Origin: Synechococcus sp. AG-683-C23
Lineage (GTDB): Bacteria > Cyanobacteriota > Cyanobacteriia > PCC-6307 > Cyanobiaceae
DNA length: 52,063 bases
NCBI GenBank assembly: GCA_003208835.1
Contig: QCVD01000013.1
Coordinates: forward strand, 1 to 52,063
Direction of reading: 5' to 3'
This document shows, one piece after another, positions 2,924 through 40,749 of this stretch. The notes beneath the pieces are model-generated. The model did no database searches. It saw only the letters and a list, made by a program, of their open reading frames with translations, and was not told the origin of the DNA. How positions within the stretch are numbered: position 1 is the first letter of the stretch; each line of letters starts with the position of its first letter. A program made the position numbers and the translations under genes.

Positions 2924-3577
2924 TTGCGCAAAGCCGAGAGGGTTCAGGTTGTGTTGGAGCGACTCAATCATCGCTACCCAGAAACACCCATTCCCCTTGA
3001 CCACTCCGATCCGTTCACGCTTCTGATTGCTGTTCTGCTGAGTGCTCAATGCACAGACAAAAAGGTGAATGAAGTCACCCCGGCACTCTTTGCTGCAGGG
3101 CAAACACCGAAAGCAATGGCATCCCTTGATGAAACGGAAATTTGGAGCTTGATCCGACAACTCGGCTTGGCAAAGACAAAAGCCAAACACGTTCGTCGTC
3201 TTTCAGAACTGTTATTGAGCGAGCATGACGGGGCTGTACCGGATAGCTTCCAGGCCCTTGAGGCACTTCCAGGAGTAGGACATAAGACAGCCAGCGTTGT
3301 GATGTCCCAAGCTTTTGGGGTCCCGGCCTTTCCAGTCGATACACACATCCATCGTCTTGCCCAACGCTGGGGATTGAGCAATGGATTATCCGTCGCCGCC
3401 ACCGAACGGGACCTGAAAAGACTGTTTCCCAAAAAACATTGGAATAAACTTCACCTGCAAATCATTTTTTACGGAAGAGAATTTTGCTCAGCCCGTGGAT
3501 GTGATGGAACGGTTTGTCCGATATGCAGAGAACTCTTTCCTCTGCGACGCAAACCCGTCATCACGCGCAAGGCATGA
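2924..3577 (+). CDS. nth: Endonuclease III (DNA glycosylase/AP lyase)
   Basis: Base-excision repair enzyme that removes oxidised pyrimidines and cleaves the AP site, 217 aa (family about 210). The helix-hairpin-helix is LEALPGVGHKTASVV with catalytic Lys121, and catalytic Asp139 lies in FPVDTHIHR. The C-terminus has four cysteines (188, 193, 198, 201) spaced C-x4-C-x4-C-x2-C, differing from the C-x6-C-x2-C-x5-C of E. coli Nth, so the 4Fe-4S loop is a variant. The start is TTG 2924; a stop lies five codons upstream and there is no earlier ATG or GTG. The stop abuts the convergent ferredoxin gene. Confidence 0.92.
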   Translation: MRKAERVQVVLERLNHRYPETPIPLDHSDPFTLLIAVLLSAQCTDKKVNEVTPALFAAGQTPKAMASLDETEIWSLIRQLGLAKTKAKHVRRLSELLLSEHDGAVPDSFQALEALPGVGHKTASVVMSQAFGVPAFPVDTHIHRLAQRWGLSNGLSVAATERDLKRLFPKKHWNKLHLQIIFYGREFCSARGCDGTVCPICRELFPLRRKPVITRKA

Positions 3578-3862
3578 CTAATTCAAATCATTTTGAATAT
3601 CAGACTTGATGGTGCAATTGGATGTTGGGTAGCTAACGCACAGCAAGGCATAGCCCCGCTCCATCTGATCTTCATCGAGAAAACTTTGATCGATTTGATC
3701 CACAGAACCTGTGAGAATTTTTCCAGCACAAGCTGAGCAAGCACCGGCACGACACGACGATGGCAAATCGACACCAGCAGCCTCGGCAGCATCCAACAGG
3801 TAAACGTCGTCAGCGCAATCGAAGCTTTCACCACCTTCGATGCTGATCGTGTAAGAGGCCAT
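3578..3862 (-). CDS. Plant-type 2Fe-2S ferredoxin
   Basis: Soluble electron carrier, 94 aa. The cluster motif is CRAGACSAC with the fourth Cys in ALLCVSY, the usual C-x4-C-x2-C-x29ish-C plan, and the N-terminus [10 protein letters not shown] matches PetF-type ferredoxins. ATG 3862 is chosen over an upstream in-frame TTG because family members begin at this point. It ends one base from the convergent nth stop, leaving no room for a terminator. Which partner enzyme it serves cannot be told from the sequence. Confidence 0.9.
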
Positions 3863-3886
3863 GATCAAAAACCACCTAACTGGTTG

Positions 3887-4618
3887 TTAGCGGGGCCCCG
3901 TCATTCGCGCCAAAACAGCATGGCAACCCGCAACAGGATCACGCACAACAACGTGAGCCTGCTGGCGTAACGGGTGAATGAAGCGGCGCTCTCCAGGAAG
4001 CATTTGCCACAGCATCTGATGCAGCACAGACATTGGAGAACGGCCGCGCTTTTTAACATCACGGGGAAGACGTCGCCAAATGCGACGCCAAAGCGGTGTT
4101 TCGAGATAAACAACGGCCTCGATCGAGTACTTGGAAAGAATGGCTTGGGGGCCGTAAGCGCCCTCCACAAGAATCAGGTCATAGCCGGCAGCAGGCATGG
4201 ATCTGAAATCAATGGTCCTGTAGCCAACCGCACGCGACCCCATGTCGTATTGGCGCAAACGAGTGAGCGTCCCCTTTCTTGCAGCATGCAAATCGGCAAG
4301 AAGAGCATCAACATCAATCGCATCGATCGTGTCAAACCCATAAATCGGATCTGGCGCGTACGCACTCCGGTAGTAGTTGTCGCATTGCAAGAGAAGAGCG
4401 GTAAGCCCGACAGCTTCGAACTGGCTAACGAGAACATTCGCGAAATGACTCTTACCAGAGGCCGATGCGCCACAAATACAAACGATGGGACAGTCTCCAT
4501 CGTCATCAATCTGAACGTTCGAGTTGTTCTTCGGGGAAAGTTCCACCCAGTGCCCTCGCCCTTTACCCGGTCTACTCATACCAGCGTGTTCCATCAGATC
4601 TTCAGGCCGTGAACGCAC
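3887..4618 (-). CDS. Uridine kinase/phosphoribulokinase-like P-loop protein
   Basis: Probable small-molecule kinase, about 243 aa. Walker A is GASASGKS near residue 50. A region reading LLQCDNYYRS follows, where uridine kinases have a DxFY substrate motif, and then DLILVEGAYG, the usual second carboxylate segment. The C-terminal half is Arg-rich (LWRRIWRRLPRDVKKRGRS), as in the lid of this family. It lies just upstream of the ferredoxin gene on the same strand (24-base gap). The start is uncertain: GTG 4618, ATG 4594 and ATG 4579 are all in frame. The substrate is unknown. Confidence 0.7.
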   Translation of the reverse strand: MRSRPEDLMEHAGMSRPGKGRGHWVELSPKNNSNVQIDDDGDCPIVCICGASASGKSHFANVLVSQFEAVGLTALLLQCDNYYRSAYAPDPIYGFDTIDAIDVDALLADLHAARKGTLTRLRQYDMGSRAVGYRTIDFRSMPAAGYDLILVEGAYGPQAILSKYSIEAVVYLETPLWRRIWRRLPRDVKKRGRSPMSVLHQMLWQMLPGERRFIHPLRQQAHVVVRDPVAGCHAVLARMTGPR

Positions 4619-4840
4619 TGCTGTGCCAAACAGATCGGTCAGCCCCTTTGGACCTGGTCATGATTTCACCAGGGGTGCCCAAAACCAGGATCACCTCAGC
4701 AAGGACCAGAACAAAACGAGTGATAACTCCAATGTTTGTTGTGCCCAGGATCGTGTCCTATCCATGCCACAGCAATAAAAGCGAGAAAAAAACCCGGGTA
4801 TGCCCATAGACAGGCCATAGCAGTGAGTCGGAAGTGCAGG

Positions 4841-4917
4841 ATTGGATCGACCTCGTCATGAGCATGTGGCGAGGTGTTGTTTTGTCCCTTGGGGGTGATG
4901 TCTCAGGGACTTTTTTC
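4841..4917 (+). ncRNA. Candidate small RNA, copy A (paralogous to copy at 16343)
   Basis: Two hairpins in a row: CCTCG (4851-4855) with CGAGG (4870-4874), then GTCCCT (4884-4889) with AGGGAC (4905-4910), followed by six T, a Rho-independent terminator. A near-identical element at 16343-16413 changes one outer or closing pair in each stem from G-C to A-T on both sides, so pairing is kept. Loop sequences (TCATGAGCATG and GTGATGTCTC) are identical. It has no open reading frame of note. I do not recognise it as Yfr1, Yfr2 or 6S RNA. Confidence 0.72.
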
Positions 4918-4978
4918 TTACTGTTGTGGAAGCTTGATCAGCTCTGAAGAATTAGGCGCAGGGCAGCGCAATCAATAG

Positions 4979-5155
4979 ATGCAACCACTGAATAATAAAA
5001 AGATCTCCGGCATCAGTGGAGCACGTCTCTGCAGAGGGAAGCACAACAAAGAAATTAGAAAAAACGGTGTTCACCTCGCCGAGCCAATGAACTTGGCAAT
5101 GCCACGGTATGGATGCCACTTGATCGAAACAACTGGTAAAAATTTCTGCGGCTGA
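4979..5155 (+). CDS. Possible small protein (58 aa), unknown
   Basis: Open frame of 58 codons starting ATG, between the small RNA and a convergent small membrane gene (stop-to-stop gap of three bases). The product is basic with four Cys (ends KNFCG). It shows no recognised motif and no clear Shine-Dalgarno. It could be chance. Confidence 0.3.
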   Translation: MQPLNNKKISGISGARLCRGKHNKEIRKNGVHLAEPMNLAMPRYGCHLIETTGKNFCG

Positions 5156-7326: not shown

Positions 7327-7605
7327 ATGATAAAGATGAACTTAACCTCATCTGTCATGCTAAGAGAAGTGCCTCCGTTTTTGTTTTACCATACATCGGA
7401 ACGACGCAAACAAGCGATGGCATTCCTAGAAAAAGTTAGCAATGATCATAGATTACGCGACAAAATTAGAATTGCAAATAATGATAGTGATGTTGTAGAG
7501 ATTGCTAAGCAAAGTGGATTTACTTTAAGCACCGATGAAATTTGGCTCTATGAAGATCGCACCTTCAAAAGGAAGGTTGGAATTCGCGGATGGTACACCA
7601 GTTAA
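7327..7605 (+). CDS. Nif11-domain small protein
   Basis: Up to 92 aa. The stretch AMAFLEKVSNDHRLRDKI followed by VVEIAKQSGFTLSTDEI fits the Nif11 domain, which often serves as the leader of ribosomally made modified peptides in cyanobacteria. Here the tail after the domain is short (ends GIRGWYTS) with no Gly-Gly cleavage site and no Cys-rich core, so it is probably not a lanthipeptide precursor. The start is uncertain: ATG 7327, 7336, 7357 and 7417 are in frame. No maturation enzyme is in the window. A second Nif11 protein is at 43451. Confidence 0.7.
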   Translation: MIKMNLTSSVMLREVPPFLFYHTSERRKQAMAFLEKVSNDHRLRDKIRIANNDSDVVEIAKQSGFTLSTDEIWLYEDRTFKRKVGIRGWYTS

Positions 7606-8654: not shown

Positions 8655-8942
8655 CTCTAACAGCGCTCAATGCATGGCGGTGTGACTGATCAGACAGATC
8701 GATGAATGACAAAAATGACCCGTTTTAATCCACCATCGCTGCAAAGAAGGTGCTGAGGGAGAGGAACTAGGCAGGCGAAGAGCCTTGGTCTGACGCTATG
8801 AACGCCGGAAAACGCAACGAAAGTTGCAATTAGGTAGCGGTTGATACAGAAACGCTATGATGTGTCCACGTTGAGCTTCTCATCGAAGCTGCAGTCAGAT
8901 CCATGTCAGGCAACGGGGGCGTGGGCAATGAAGGAGTGCTTT

Positions 8943-15274: not shown

Positions 15275-15400
15275 CCCACCAAAGACCTACATCCTCAGTG
15301 GACCCTATTCATCGTCTGGAATCGATGAACTAAAACAACTCTGATCAGGTTTCGGACCCACTTCGCATCACAACCAACAGGTGGACGCATCGGATGAGAC
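15275..15400. repeat. Dispersed repeat, copy R1 (diverged)
   Basis: Shares the order CCACC... TATTCATCG... GATGAAC... AACTCTGAT... CGCATCACAACC... CGCATCGGATGAGA with copies at 19103, 20975, 27249 and 28951. Confidence 0.6.
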
Positions 15401-15762: not shown

Positions 15763-16342
15763 ATTCAGTACAGTTAAGTGCAGAATTTTTCGACGAAGCC
15801 AAGTAGAATGTACAACACATTTTCGGTCGAGCTACTGCCAGCACAAAATATTGCAGTTCCACATACATGTTTGCATTAAATATTACGAGCCTTGAAGTCA
15901 CGTATATTTAGGCAAAGGTGCAAGAAGTGGACCATTCATCACTGCAATTAACTAGATATTTAAGTTAAAGGCTTCAGTGACATTGTTGGCAAAAGAACTG
16001 TGTCTTGGCCTTTGAGAAAGCACAGGAAGGATCTGGCGATGCTGCCGCGCGAATAGCAGCAGACCCTATGTACAAAGACTCCAAGCCGTAGCCAGATTCA
16101 TTAGCTGAAACTCCACTTCGTCATCAACCCACTGATCGAAGGCTGAGCAAGCAATCGATTGACTGCTCGAATCCAACAGGGTATGGGGTTAAAAAACCAA
16201 GCCAGTTCAACAATTTTCAGATTTGACCTGTGAGGCATCGATATCCATGCAGCTGGGCAGACGAGGCAGTCAGCGCCGAAAAGAAAAGATAAATTAGTTT
16301 CAATAGATACGCAACAGCAGCCCGTCGCAATTGCAATGTTGT
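15763..16342. other. Long stretch without an intact gene
   Basis: One coding-like remnant is visible at about 15981-16091 (+), reading VLAFEKAQEGSGDAAARIAA to a stop, without a start codon other than an internal TTG. The rest shows nothing recognisable apart from leading into the small RNA at 16343. Confidence 0.4.
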
Positions 16343-16413
16343 ATTGGCCTCATCATGAGCATGAGTGAGGTGTTGTTATATCCCTAAGGGTGATGTCTCA
16401 GGGATTTTTTTTT
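16343..16413 (+). ncRNA. Candidate small RNA, copy B
   Basis: Paralogue of 4841-4917. Stem 1 is CCTCA (16348-16352) with TGAGG (16366-16370); the terminator stem is ATCCCT (16380-16385) with AGGGAT (16400-16405), then eight T. Compared with copy A, the last pair of stem 1 and the first pair of stem 2 change G-C to A-T on both sides. Loops are conserved. ATTGG precedes stem 1 in both copies, suggesting the conserved unit begins there. Confidence 0.72.
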
Positions 16414-16440
16414 GTTTGGTCCCGACCGAGGGCGCTGCTA

Positions 16441-17299
16441 TTAGCGGCGCAGGGCTTCTAGCTCCAGGCTGCAATTTGTATTGCCTTGACCGTTATTTTT
16501 TCGTAGTGCCTCCACTTCTCCGGCTGCAGCTCGAAGATCAGCCCTAAAAACTGGGTTGCTGTGCAGTCGCGCAACGGTGGCTGAATCCATCACAAGTCCT
16601 GCCTGGACATCACTGTTCCAATGGAGGTTGCAAACACTACGACTTTGCCATAGGCAAGGCCGCGAGACAAGATTTGGTTCTGTCTTTCAGGTGCAATCTC
16701 ATTGAGAATCAGCGCCCAGGCCCAGCCAACCGAAGTATGCCCAGAGGGGTATGAGCCATGATTTCTCAGACCAGCCTCCATTTCGGGCGTGCACATCGGT
16801 TTATCATTTTGTGTAAACGGGCGTGGGCGTTGATAGTGATTCTTCGCATGATATGTAGCCATACCGGCATCAGTTAGTGAGCGTCTTGGCAGGGTGTATA
16901 GCTTGGGCGTATCTTCCTGGCTAATTTAAATCCCCAAAGCGCAGGAATAAATCCCAGAAGCTGCTGGGAAATCAAGGTCTGCGTCGCGTCTAGCCAGCTT
17001 CCAATGCGAACTTCCTTGAAGTAGAAAAGTATCTTCTGCAGTGGCAACATCAAGGTCAAAGGCTGCTGAATCTTTTTCGGTGGAGCAGCTAGAAGTTTTA
17101 GAGAATCAGGTAGTGAATCAGGCTCGAGGTAGCCCTTCAAAAGGCCCTTGTGTGAGCCTGCCTGGATTTCTTTTAGATAGGTGGGAGAGCCACTCCCTAA
17201 CTAACAGTCTGTGCTGGATTCAGCGGAAGCTGAAGATCCAAGGAACGTCGTGACCATGGCCAGAGAACAAGCAACAAGGCTGATCCGGAACCGATGCAT
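16441..17299 (-). pseudogene. Decayed PAP2/class A acid phosphatase
   Basis: A full phosphatase can be read across frames: signal peptide (LVACSLAMVTTFLGSSASAE), GYLEPDSLPDSLKLLAAPP, FDLDVATAEDTFLLQGSSHW, then KNHYQRPRPF (motif 1), SYPSGHTSVGWAWA (motif 2) and SRSVCNLHWNSDVQAG (motif 3), ending LELEALRR at 16441. It is disabled by a TAG just after the signal peptide, a TAA in the middle (LGI-stop-ISQED) and frameshifts after APPKK and before motif 3. Intact enzymes are periplasmic and release phosphate from organic esters. The catalytic motifs are still legible, so the loss is fairly recent. Confidence 0.85.
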
Positions 17300-17543: not shown

Positions 17544-17696
17544 ATGGGAACGGACCTCACCGCCATCCTCATCTCATCAGTGTTTCTCGGGGTTGGCTCT
17601 GTGGTGGCCAAGTTCTTCCCTGAGGCATCTCTGATGGCTGGTGTGTTCCTGGTGGGGCTGGCACTCGTCAACATCACCTTGTATTTCGTGTCCTAA
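17544..17696 (+). CDS. Small two-helix membrane protein (50 aa)
   Basis: MGTDLTAILISSVFLGVGSV, a short polar turn (AKFFPEA), then a second helix (GVFLVGLALVNITLYFV). It is hydrophobic throughout, a credible membrane hairpin. It is convergent with the minus-strand run of small genes that ends at 17701. No family recognised. Confidence 0.55.
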   Translation: MGTDLTAILISSVFLGVGSVVAKFFPEASLMAGVFLVGLALVNITLYFVS

Positions 17697-20805: not shown

Positions 20806-20974
20806 AAAAAAGTAATAGACATGTATTGTTCTAGCTTGTTCAGCACTTAATGGGGTACGAAAAAAGCACGATCGTCTGAGTCTCTGACGGAATAAGCGTT
20901 AACAAACGAGGATGATTAAAGGATGCAAGGCGAGGACCACTCCCTGGAGGAATGAGTGGCCCACAACCCTGATA

Positions 20975-25709: not shown

Positions 25710-26744
25710 TTAGCTTACTTTGGCCGTATCCATTGTTTCTAACGCTTGAGATACACTCTTAAAATTAAATCCCATACTGCGTAGTGCATGCCAAAAATGG
25801 CCTTGAAGGAAGAAGAATGCCAGATAGAAATGCGTATTTGCTAACCAGGCTCTTGCTGTGTGTCCATCGTTTAAGACTGCAGCAGTATCACTGAAGTATG
25901 GCGAGAATGCGAAATTGAGCTTCAGTGCCTCTCCGTAAAACTCCACCGGATAGATCAGAGTGTTCTGTGCACACCAGATACTGGTAACAAATCCCATGAG
26001 AGCAATGCCTGCCAATGAATAGGACAGGATGGCTTCACCGGAATAAATCAAAATCTTTTTGAATGGCCCAAATGGGCTTGAAATAATATGCCAAACCCCA
26101 CCAATAGTGAGGATGAATGCCAGAACGGCATGTCCTCCCATCACGTCCTCAAGGCTACTAATCGAGAGAAAATTCGTCTGATAGCCCCAGACCATACCTA
26201 GATCAATGTTGGGCTCAACTTGGCGAACGGCACCGATTGCAGTGTCATAGATGCCATGGTGTTTGGCCCATTCAACAAATGCAATAACACCCAATCCAAG
26301 AAAGATCAGATGATGGCCAAGGATAAATGTGAGTTTCTTTGCGTCGTCCCATTCAAAGTGAAATTTTTGTGCTCGTCCCTCTGCGACGGATAAGTCTTTC
26401 GGGGCTCTGAGCGTATGCCAAATGCCAGCGGCTCCCAACACTGCGGAAGAGACCAAATGAAAGGCAGCAATAGCAATATATGGCTCTGTATTGGCAATTG
26501 TTGCACTCGCGTCGAGGCCTAAGCCTAAAGACGCCATATGAGGTAACAGAATTAATCCTTGGTCTCCCATAGGCAATGCACTGTTGTAGCGAGCCAACTC
26601 AAAGAGAGTGAATGCACCGGCCCAAAACATGATGAGGCCAGCATGGGCGGCATGCGCCGCAATAAACGAGCCAGATCGTTTGGCTACTCCTGAATTTCCT
26701 GCCCACCAGTCATAGCTGACTGATGAATTCCCATAGGATTGCAT
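25710..26744 (-). CDS. isiA: Iron-stress chlorophyll-binding protein (IsiA/Pcb, CP43-like)
   Basis: 344 aa, six-helix CP43-type antenna. Diagnostic stretches are SYDWWAGNSGVAKRSG, HAGLIMFWAGAFTLFELARY, FHFEWDDAKKL, NFLSISSLEDVMGGHAVLAF and LAFFFLQGHFWHALRSMGF; the His residues bind chlorophyll. It lacks the large lumenal loop of true CP43. IsiA rings photosystem I when iron is short. ATG 26744 (MQSYGN) fits family N-termini better than the in-frame GTG at 26768. No flavodoxin gene follows. Convergent with psbY. Confidence 0.9.
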   Translation of the reverse strand: MQSYGNSSVSYDWWAGNSGVAKRSGSFIAAHAAHAGLIMFWAGAFTLFELARYNSALPMGDQGLILLPHMASLGLGLDASATIANTEPYIAIAAFHLVSSAVLGAAGIWHTLRAPKDLSVAEGRAQKFHFEWDDAKKLTFILGHHLIFLGLGVIAFVEWAKHHGIYDTAIGAVRQVEPNIDLGMVWGYQTNFLSISSLEDVMGGHAVLAFILTIGGVWHIISSPFGPFKKILIYSGEAILSYSLAGIALMGFVTSIWCAQNTLIYPVEFYGEALKLNFAFSPYFSDTAAVLNDGHTARAWLANTHFYLAFFFLQGHFWHALRSMGFNFKSVSQALETMDTAKVS

Positions 26745-26797
26745 GTAAACAAACCATTGTGCTTCCACAGAGTACGAATCAACAAACCTTTTGCTTC

Positions 26798-40379: not shown

Positions 40380-40580
40380 TTAATGGTCCTCACTCTCCTC
40401 AATCTCTGAAAAATCCATGGAAGCCGCAAAGTCCAATAGTTCAGCAGCTAAGACGGCGTCACCTTCAAGCATCAATGTCTTGTGAAGGCTGATAACCATC
40501 TCGTAGCTGGATGACGCCGAACCATTGATCAAGCTGCGCGCCGTGCCGCGAGCGACAACTAATTCAAGACTCATGCTCAT
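40380..40580 (-). CDS. Small acidic protein (66 aa)
   Basis: MSMSLELVVARGTARSLING, then MVISLHKTLMLEGDAVLAAE and an acidic end (FSEIEESEDH). Helical. C-terminal similarity to 33565-33696 suggests a small paralogous group. Divergent from 40750. Confidence 0.6.
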   Translation of the reverse strand: MSMSLELVVARGTARSLINGSASSSYEMVISLHKTLMLEGDAVLAAELLDFAASMDFSEIEESEDH

Positions 40581-40749
40581 GACTCAACCATGGCCTTCTT
40601 CACACGCGATTGGGAGTCAACTTCGCTTTTACAGCTGATTTTGATCACAAAACAACATCAAAGCCAACGCTACGCATATGCGTTGCGACAACTGACTGTT
40701 GAGCCGAATTTGAAGCATCTGGCAGCGTCCGCAGAACAAAACAGCCATA

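Follow-up and report, generated by a model that had tools for sequence, protein, structure and literature searches.

Two copies of an element composed of two hairpins, a linker between them and a terminal T-run were recognized in the window, that is, in the whole 52,063-nt stretch of Synechococcus sp. AG-683-C23 DNA analysed here. The element very probably represents a real RNA structure under selection, and its sequence points to a free-standing small RNA (sRNA) as its most likely identity. The fuller explanation, an sRNA about 75 nt long that terminates at an intrinsic terminator and probably acts by base pairing, also appears rather likely. The features of both copies are as follows.

4804-4845, + strand: conserved block upstream of copy A, weakly structured, putative promoter or regulatory DNA
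4846-4917, + strand: copy A of the two-hairpin RNA element (direct reading, BLAST, alignment)
4850-4875, + strand: hairpin 1 of copy A, its loop region containing GAGCATG (fold, alignment)
4876-4883, + strand: linker of copy A, containing GTTGTT (alignment)
4884-4916, + strand: hairpin 2 of copy A with the GGTGATGT loop region, then the T-run; resembles an intrinsic terminator and was picked up by a simple terminator scan
16301-16342, + strand: conserved block upstream of copy B (alignment)
16343-16412, + strand: copy B of the two-hairpin RNA element (direct reading, BLAST, alignment)
16347-16371, + strand: hairpin 1 of copy B, with a 1-nt deletion and one unpaired cell (fold, alignment)
16372-16379, + strand: linker of copy B (alignment)
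16380-16413, + strand: hairpin 2 of copy B and its T-run; missed by the simple terminator scan
17544-17696, + strand: ORF of 50 amino acids downstream of copy B

A sequence-only reading of the window had proposed that the two copies share their loops, differ by compensated base changes in both stems and end in T-runs, all of which was borne out by direct inspection. The loops TCATGAGCATG and GGGTGATGTCTC are present in both copies, one G-C pair of each stem is replaced by A-T on both sides (CCTCG/CGAGG in A versus CCTCA/TGAGG in B in stem 1; GTCCCT/AGGGAC versus ATCCCT/AGGGAT in stem 2), and by eye the T-run flanks hairpin 2 on one side only in A and in B. Copy A is best placed at 4846-4917. 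The proposed extent needs correction in that A and B resemble each other from about 40 nt further 5', with 4806-4866 and 16303-16363 being 74% identical. BLAST of copy A against its own genome (assembly 77% complete) retrieved copy B with an E-value of 8.1e-14 and, at E up to 1, nothing else. With at most one mismatch, TCATGAGCATG alone was unremarkable (3 matches versus 2.02 expected), the third match lying at 40572-40582 on the - strand with no GGGTGATGTCTC nearby, and GGGTGATGTCTC was found twice versus 0.25 expected, a count equalled in 2 of 100 shuffles. The joint similarity of A and B is beyond chance.

Searches of 34 genomes of the genus revealed one homologue in each of two congeners, at 888527-888597 (- strand) in G003 and at 1406152-1406222 (+ strand) in G001, bringing the clear loci to four. 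Their consensus structure consists of two hairpins of 8 and 9 pairs. In the four sequences together these make 68 pair cells, and 66 of them (97.1%) can pair, versus 36-54% in six slid controls; both broken cells are in copy B, one each in two pairs. Three pairs changed on both sides, compared with none in five of the slid controls and one in the sixth: the G-C to A-U exchange of copy B in each hairpin and a new C-G to U-A exchange in G001. The selected RNA structure in a small family that had been proposed from the two copies is thus upheld by two homologues that keep both stems, the G001 locus adding a compensated pair of its own. Eight of the 17 pairs never vary. When the 3' letters were shuffled, 12 of 500 shuffles equalled the observed pairing and covariation together, and the count of further pair types was no higher than in the shuffles, being equalled in 500 of 500.

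The alignment folded with a consensus energy of -27.52 kcal/mol, to which folding contributed -26.02 and covariation -1.5, and none of 1000 column-shuffled alignments was as good (mean -12.67, sd 2.69; z -5.52), nor was any of a second set of 1000 in energy. The covariation term alone was equalled by 75 of 1000 column shuffles, indicating that stability carries most of the z-score and slightly reducing our confidence in the explanation as a base-pairing sRNA; covariation adds moderately to this test. Folded as separate alignments, hairpin 1 gave a z-score of -3.97 and hairpin 2 one of -5.98. Copy A folded alone reached z -2.57 (1 of 200 shuffles as good), and the result for copy B was modest (z -1.42; 18 of 200). 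Loops and linker are 85-93% identical and stems 67-88%, with higher identity for loops and linker in all six pairwise comparisons, and GAGCATG in loop 1 and GTTGTT in the linker are invariant across the four sequences.

Conservation extends over about 42 nt 5' of hairpin 1, where AGCAG and TGCA occur in all four sequences, so that the conserved unit, block included, spans about 115 nt. Treated as RNA, this block gave z -1.13 with all four sequences and z -2.25 (26 of 1000 shuffles as good) without copy A; a GACACA/TGTGTC hairpin within it forms in G003, forms partly elsewhere and is broken in copy A. We prefer to regard the block as promoter or regulator-binding DNA rather than as part of the RNA. 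A consensus scan detected no sigma-70-type promoter in 4600-5000 or in 16100-16500.

The succession of a hairpin, a U-rich single-stranded linker, a terminator-like hairpin and a T-run is the anatomy of a trans-acting sRNA, as judged from the predicted fold. The conserved upstream block would hold the promoter, transcription would start at or shortly before hairpin 1, and termination at hairpin 2 would yield an RNA of about 70-80 nt, or of about 115 nt at most if the block were transcribed. Base pairing is the favoured mode of action: GAGCAUG in loop 1, GUUGUU in the linker and GGUGAUGU in loop 2 may bind mRNAs in trans by pairing and alter their translation or decay, much as Yfr1 and Yfr2 do, steps that we propose with less certainty than those concerning the transcript. 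Copies A and B would be paralogues, perhaps partly redundant.

The element does not appear to be coding or an obvious leader. No reading frame is shared among the four sequences: an indel in copy A shifts its frame relative to the other three, and the four have no start codons in common. Translated in one frame, B, G003 and G001 give short peptides that resemble each other, as expected of conserved DNA. No shared same-strand ORF of at least 40 amino acids starts within 400 nt downstream of the element.

Antisense searches of three genomes for candidate mRNA partners returned no convincing conserved target. Matches to the linker antisense numbered 99, versus 102 for the reversed pattern, and were thus not enriched, and those to the loop-2 antisense were in modest excess (49 versus 25), although the 49 include four in the elements themselves. 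Forty-one of these 49 sites fall in a stretch that is open on one strand for 100 codons or more; among the remaining eight, two are elements and the other six were read. A candidate target upstream of the start of a 44-aa ORF, for which Pfam and NCBIfam provided no name, was rejected: the site is intact in G000, G001 and G025, broken in the element-bearing G003 and absent from the other 25 loci read. Another site, found in G000 only (L244), precedes a 329-codon frame by 60 nt. As an exact 12-nt match, the loop-2 antisense has a single occurrence outside the elements in the three genomes, within an open frame of G003. An 8-nt match to loop 2 was seen by eye inside the 50-aa gene, and the duplex energies computed with this gene, which permit long bulged duplexes, carry little weight.

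Neither copy was matched at gathering score by any of the 4227 Rfam models, the two matches in the window lying elsewhere, and lax scans of both loci gave sub-threshold matches only. A match to anti-hemB (RF02837) at both copies was discarded, since its scores of 14.2 and 15.3 bits are below the gathering score of 49.5 and its E-values (0.59 and 0.28) are at chance level. These scans are consistent with the earlier statement that the element is not Yfr1, Yfr2 or 6S RNA, provided that those families have models in Rfam.

Yfr1 is placed between trxA and guaB in three strains (PMC1242208) and called almost universal (PMC6778093). The element is also small, but its copies in the window are not beside trxA or guaB and lack an Rfam match, and by BLAST it was matched in only 3 of 400 family genomes. 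Yfr2-5 of strain MED4 are RNAs of 89-95 nt in several copies at differing genome sites, with a GGAAACA repeat in the 5' hairpin loop (PMC1242208). Small size and several copies at differing sites are common to both, whereas GGAAACA is absent from A and B, in which loop 1 is TCATGAGCATG, and no Rfam match was obtained. In Synechococcus CC9605, Yfr103 has seven paralogues that are 290-328 nt long, and many other strains carry homologues (PMC5069720). It resembles the element in being a marine picocyanobacterial non-coding RNA with paralogues; the conserved unit of the element is about 115 nt and is found in 3 of 400 genomes, a contrast drawn by description and with predicted ends only. The element probably represents a new sRNA family, set apart from Yfr103 by description. 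No account of it was found in the literature consulted on Yfr103, on non-coding RNAs of Prochlorococcus and on sRNAs and islands, and one may exist elsewhere.

Copy A is flanked by a PRK-like ORF on one side and a phycobilisome-linker ORF on the other, and copy B lies near a PAP2 ORF. Copy A lies just past a break in conserved gene order: with a query starting at 3001, window positions 3001-4608 align with G003 and 3001-4485 with G001, and the PRK-like gene is distant from the elements of both genomes. The genes beside copy A and beside the G001 copy are on the opposite strand. The notion that all four loci are unlinked was rejected, since B, G001 and G003 have the 50-aa gene as a common neighbour, on the same strand downstream of the element by 1.13 kb (B), 2.75 kb (G001) and 5.47 kb (G003). 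Its presence came to attention only afterwards, among stretches that the regions around the elements have in common. It has one match in each of the three element-bearing genomes, with order and strand kept, as expected of an inherited locus. It is present in 20 of the 34 genus genomes, and the model, run with filters off over about 1.5 kb around the gene in seven element-less genomes, gave no convincing match (best E 0.27).

Over 80 kb around their elements, G003 and G001 have in common only stretches of up to 909 nt. In G001, an ORF of the integrase family (PF00589; 26.1 bits, cut-off 27.1) is about 0.7 kb from the element. A capsid-like fragment (PF05065) adjoins the G003 element (L033 8083-8430, - strand) and recurs in G001 about 6 kb from the element in the opposite relative orientation (L034 14133-14351, - strand), which suggests an inversion or other rearrangement; a further integrase-like ORF and an ATPase-like ORF were read by eye in G003. 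In view of the short common stretches and the integrase-like and capsid-like remnants, we describe these surroundings as island-like.

The family looks narrow in distribution. BLAST over 400 family genomes gave matches in three, all from this genus, and a covariance model, scoring 12 candidates per genome, gave matches in six at E up to 0.01, weak ones in G031, G077 and G171. Within the genus, the model returned matches in 25 of 34 genomes at E up to 1. In both model searches, scores outside the four clear loci were 25.7 bits or less, versus 87.5 bits or more for the clear ones; eight of the weak matches were read by eye and dismissed as homologues, resembling plain terminators or coding DNA. 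These searches did not show the element to be widespread in picocyanobacteria. The weak matches in G077 and G171 (24.4 and 23.3 bits) represent a single locus, present in two genomes that belong to a different genus.

L009 1501-1564 and L010 1501-1564: locus with two hairpins, TCATGAGC and an AGGGA terminator

This locus could be a distant relative of the element or a chance match, its E-values of 0.004-0.009 per genome being non-significant over 400 genomes. No match was detected in phage records, and the model applied to 89 pattern loci of viral contigs (leaving out L160-L167) gave a best E of 0.027, off the pattern site and unconvincing. A scan of a contig collection, which may omit near relatives, returned 13 stretches, none cyanobacterial by title. 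In eight congeners, BLAST repeatedly matched positions 47-75 of the copy B query, which was attributed to another conserved locus; the second loop was present in none of the eight, each read over about 150 nt. The 44-aa protein is 95-100% identical among G000, G001, G003 and G025 and 73% or less elsewhere, and judged by this one protein the four genomes look like one clade; the element was not found in the G025 assembly (65% complete).

Alternative explanations of the element were weighed against the base-pairing sRNA. A structured RNA acting mainly via protein, for instance by sequestering a regulator or a ribonuclease with its loops as binding motifs, would account for loops that are near-invariant in the face of no convincing mRNA targets, yet no known protein-binding family was recognised at gathering score in either copy and the linker appears U-rich and unpaired like that of pairing sRNAs; we consider this explanation unlikely.

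It seems somewhat less probable still that the element is a conserved terminator, 3'-UTR or leader module spread with island DNA rather than an independent RNA. The terminator-like hairpin 2 and T-run of copy A, the integrase-like and capsid-like remnants near the relatives' copies and the short stretches common to G003 and G001 are compatible with such a module, but the upstream block, both hairpins and the linker are conserved as a set, copy A and the G001 copy lie next to genes on the opposite strand, and a common same-strand ORF start is lacking within 400 nt downstream. A short mobile or repeated DNA element, in which the palindromes matter as hairpin DNA or as an attachment site, is very improbable: copy A is unlinked to the neighbours of the congener copies and mobile-element genes occur near the G001 and G003 copies, but each genome has just one or two copies, partial duplicates were not seen, the exact loop-2 antisense is almost confined to the elements, and B, G001 and G003 are followed by a common gene whose order and strand are kept.

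To our knowledge, few marine picocyanobacterial sRNAs have been worked out in function. The preferred reading as an sRNA, if true, would mean that the matched stem changes and near-invariant loops in three close genomes mark a young regulatory RNA on which selection acts, and would make the element a compact test case for how regulatory RNAs arise and travel with genomic islands. That the sRNA arose recently, is specific to this clade and resides in hypervariable island-like DNA, tying island genes to host regulation while a second copy edges conserved gene order and the 50-aa gene may belong to the same circuit, is a tentative and rather doubtful extension.

The two Rfam matches in the window were an IsrR antisense RNA (RF01419, 65.6 bits) at 26180-26351 on the + strand, opposite an ORF at 25710-26768 (- strand) that is presumably isiA-like given the described role of IsrR, and a Glutamine-II riboswitch (RF01704, 48.8 bits) at 8866-8925 on the + strand, overlapping the start of a 115-aa ORF. 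Nif11-domain ORFs occur both close to the G001 element (L034 8927-9238, + strand) and at 7327-7605 (+ strand) of the window. The window also contains four copies (at 15323, 19158, 27218 and 29009) of a dispersed 83-88-nt repeat, 63-71% identical to the 83-nt reference copy, and a pair of 150-nt repeats at 20959 and 28934 with 79% identity.
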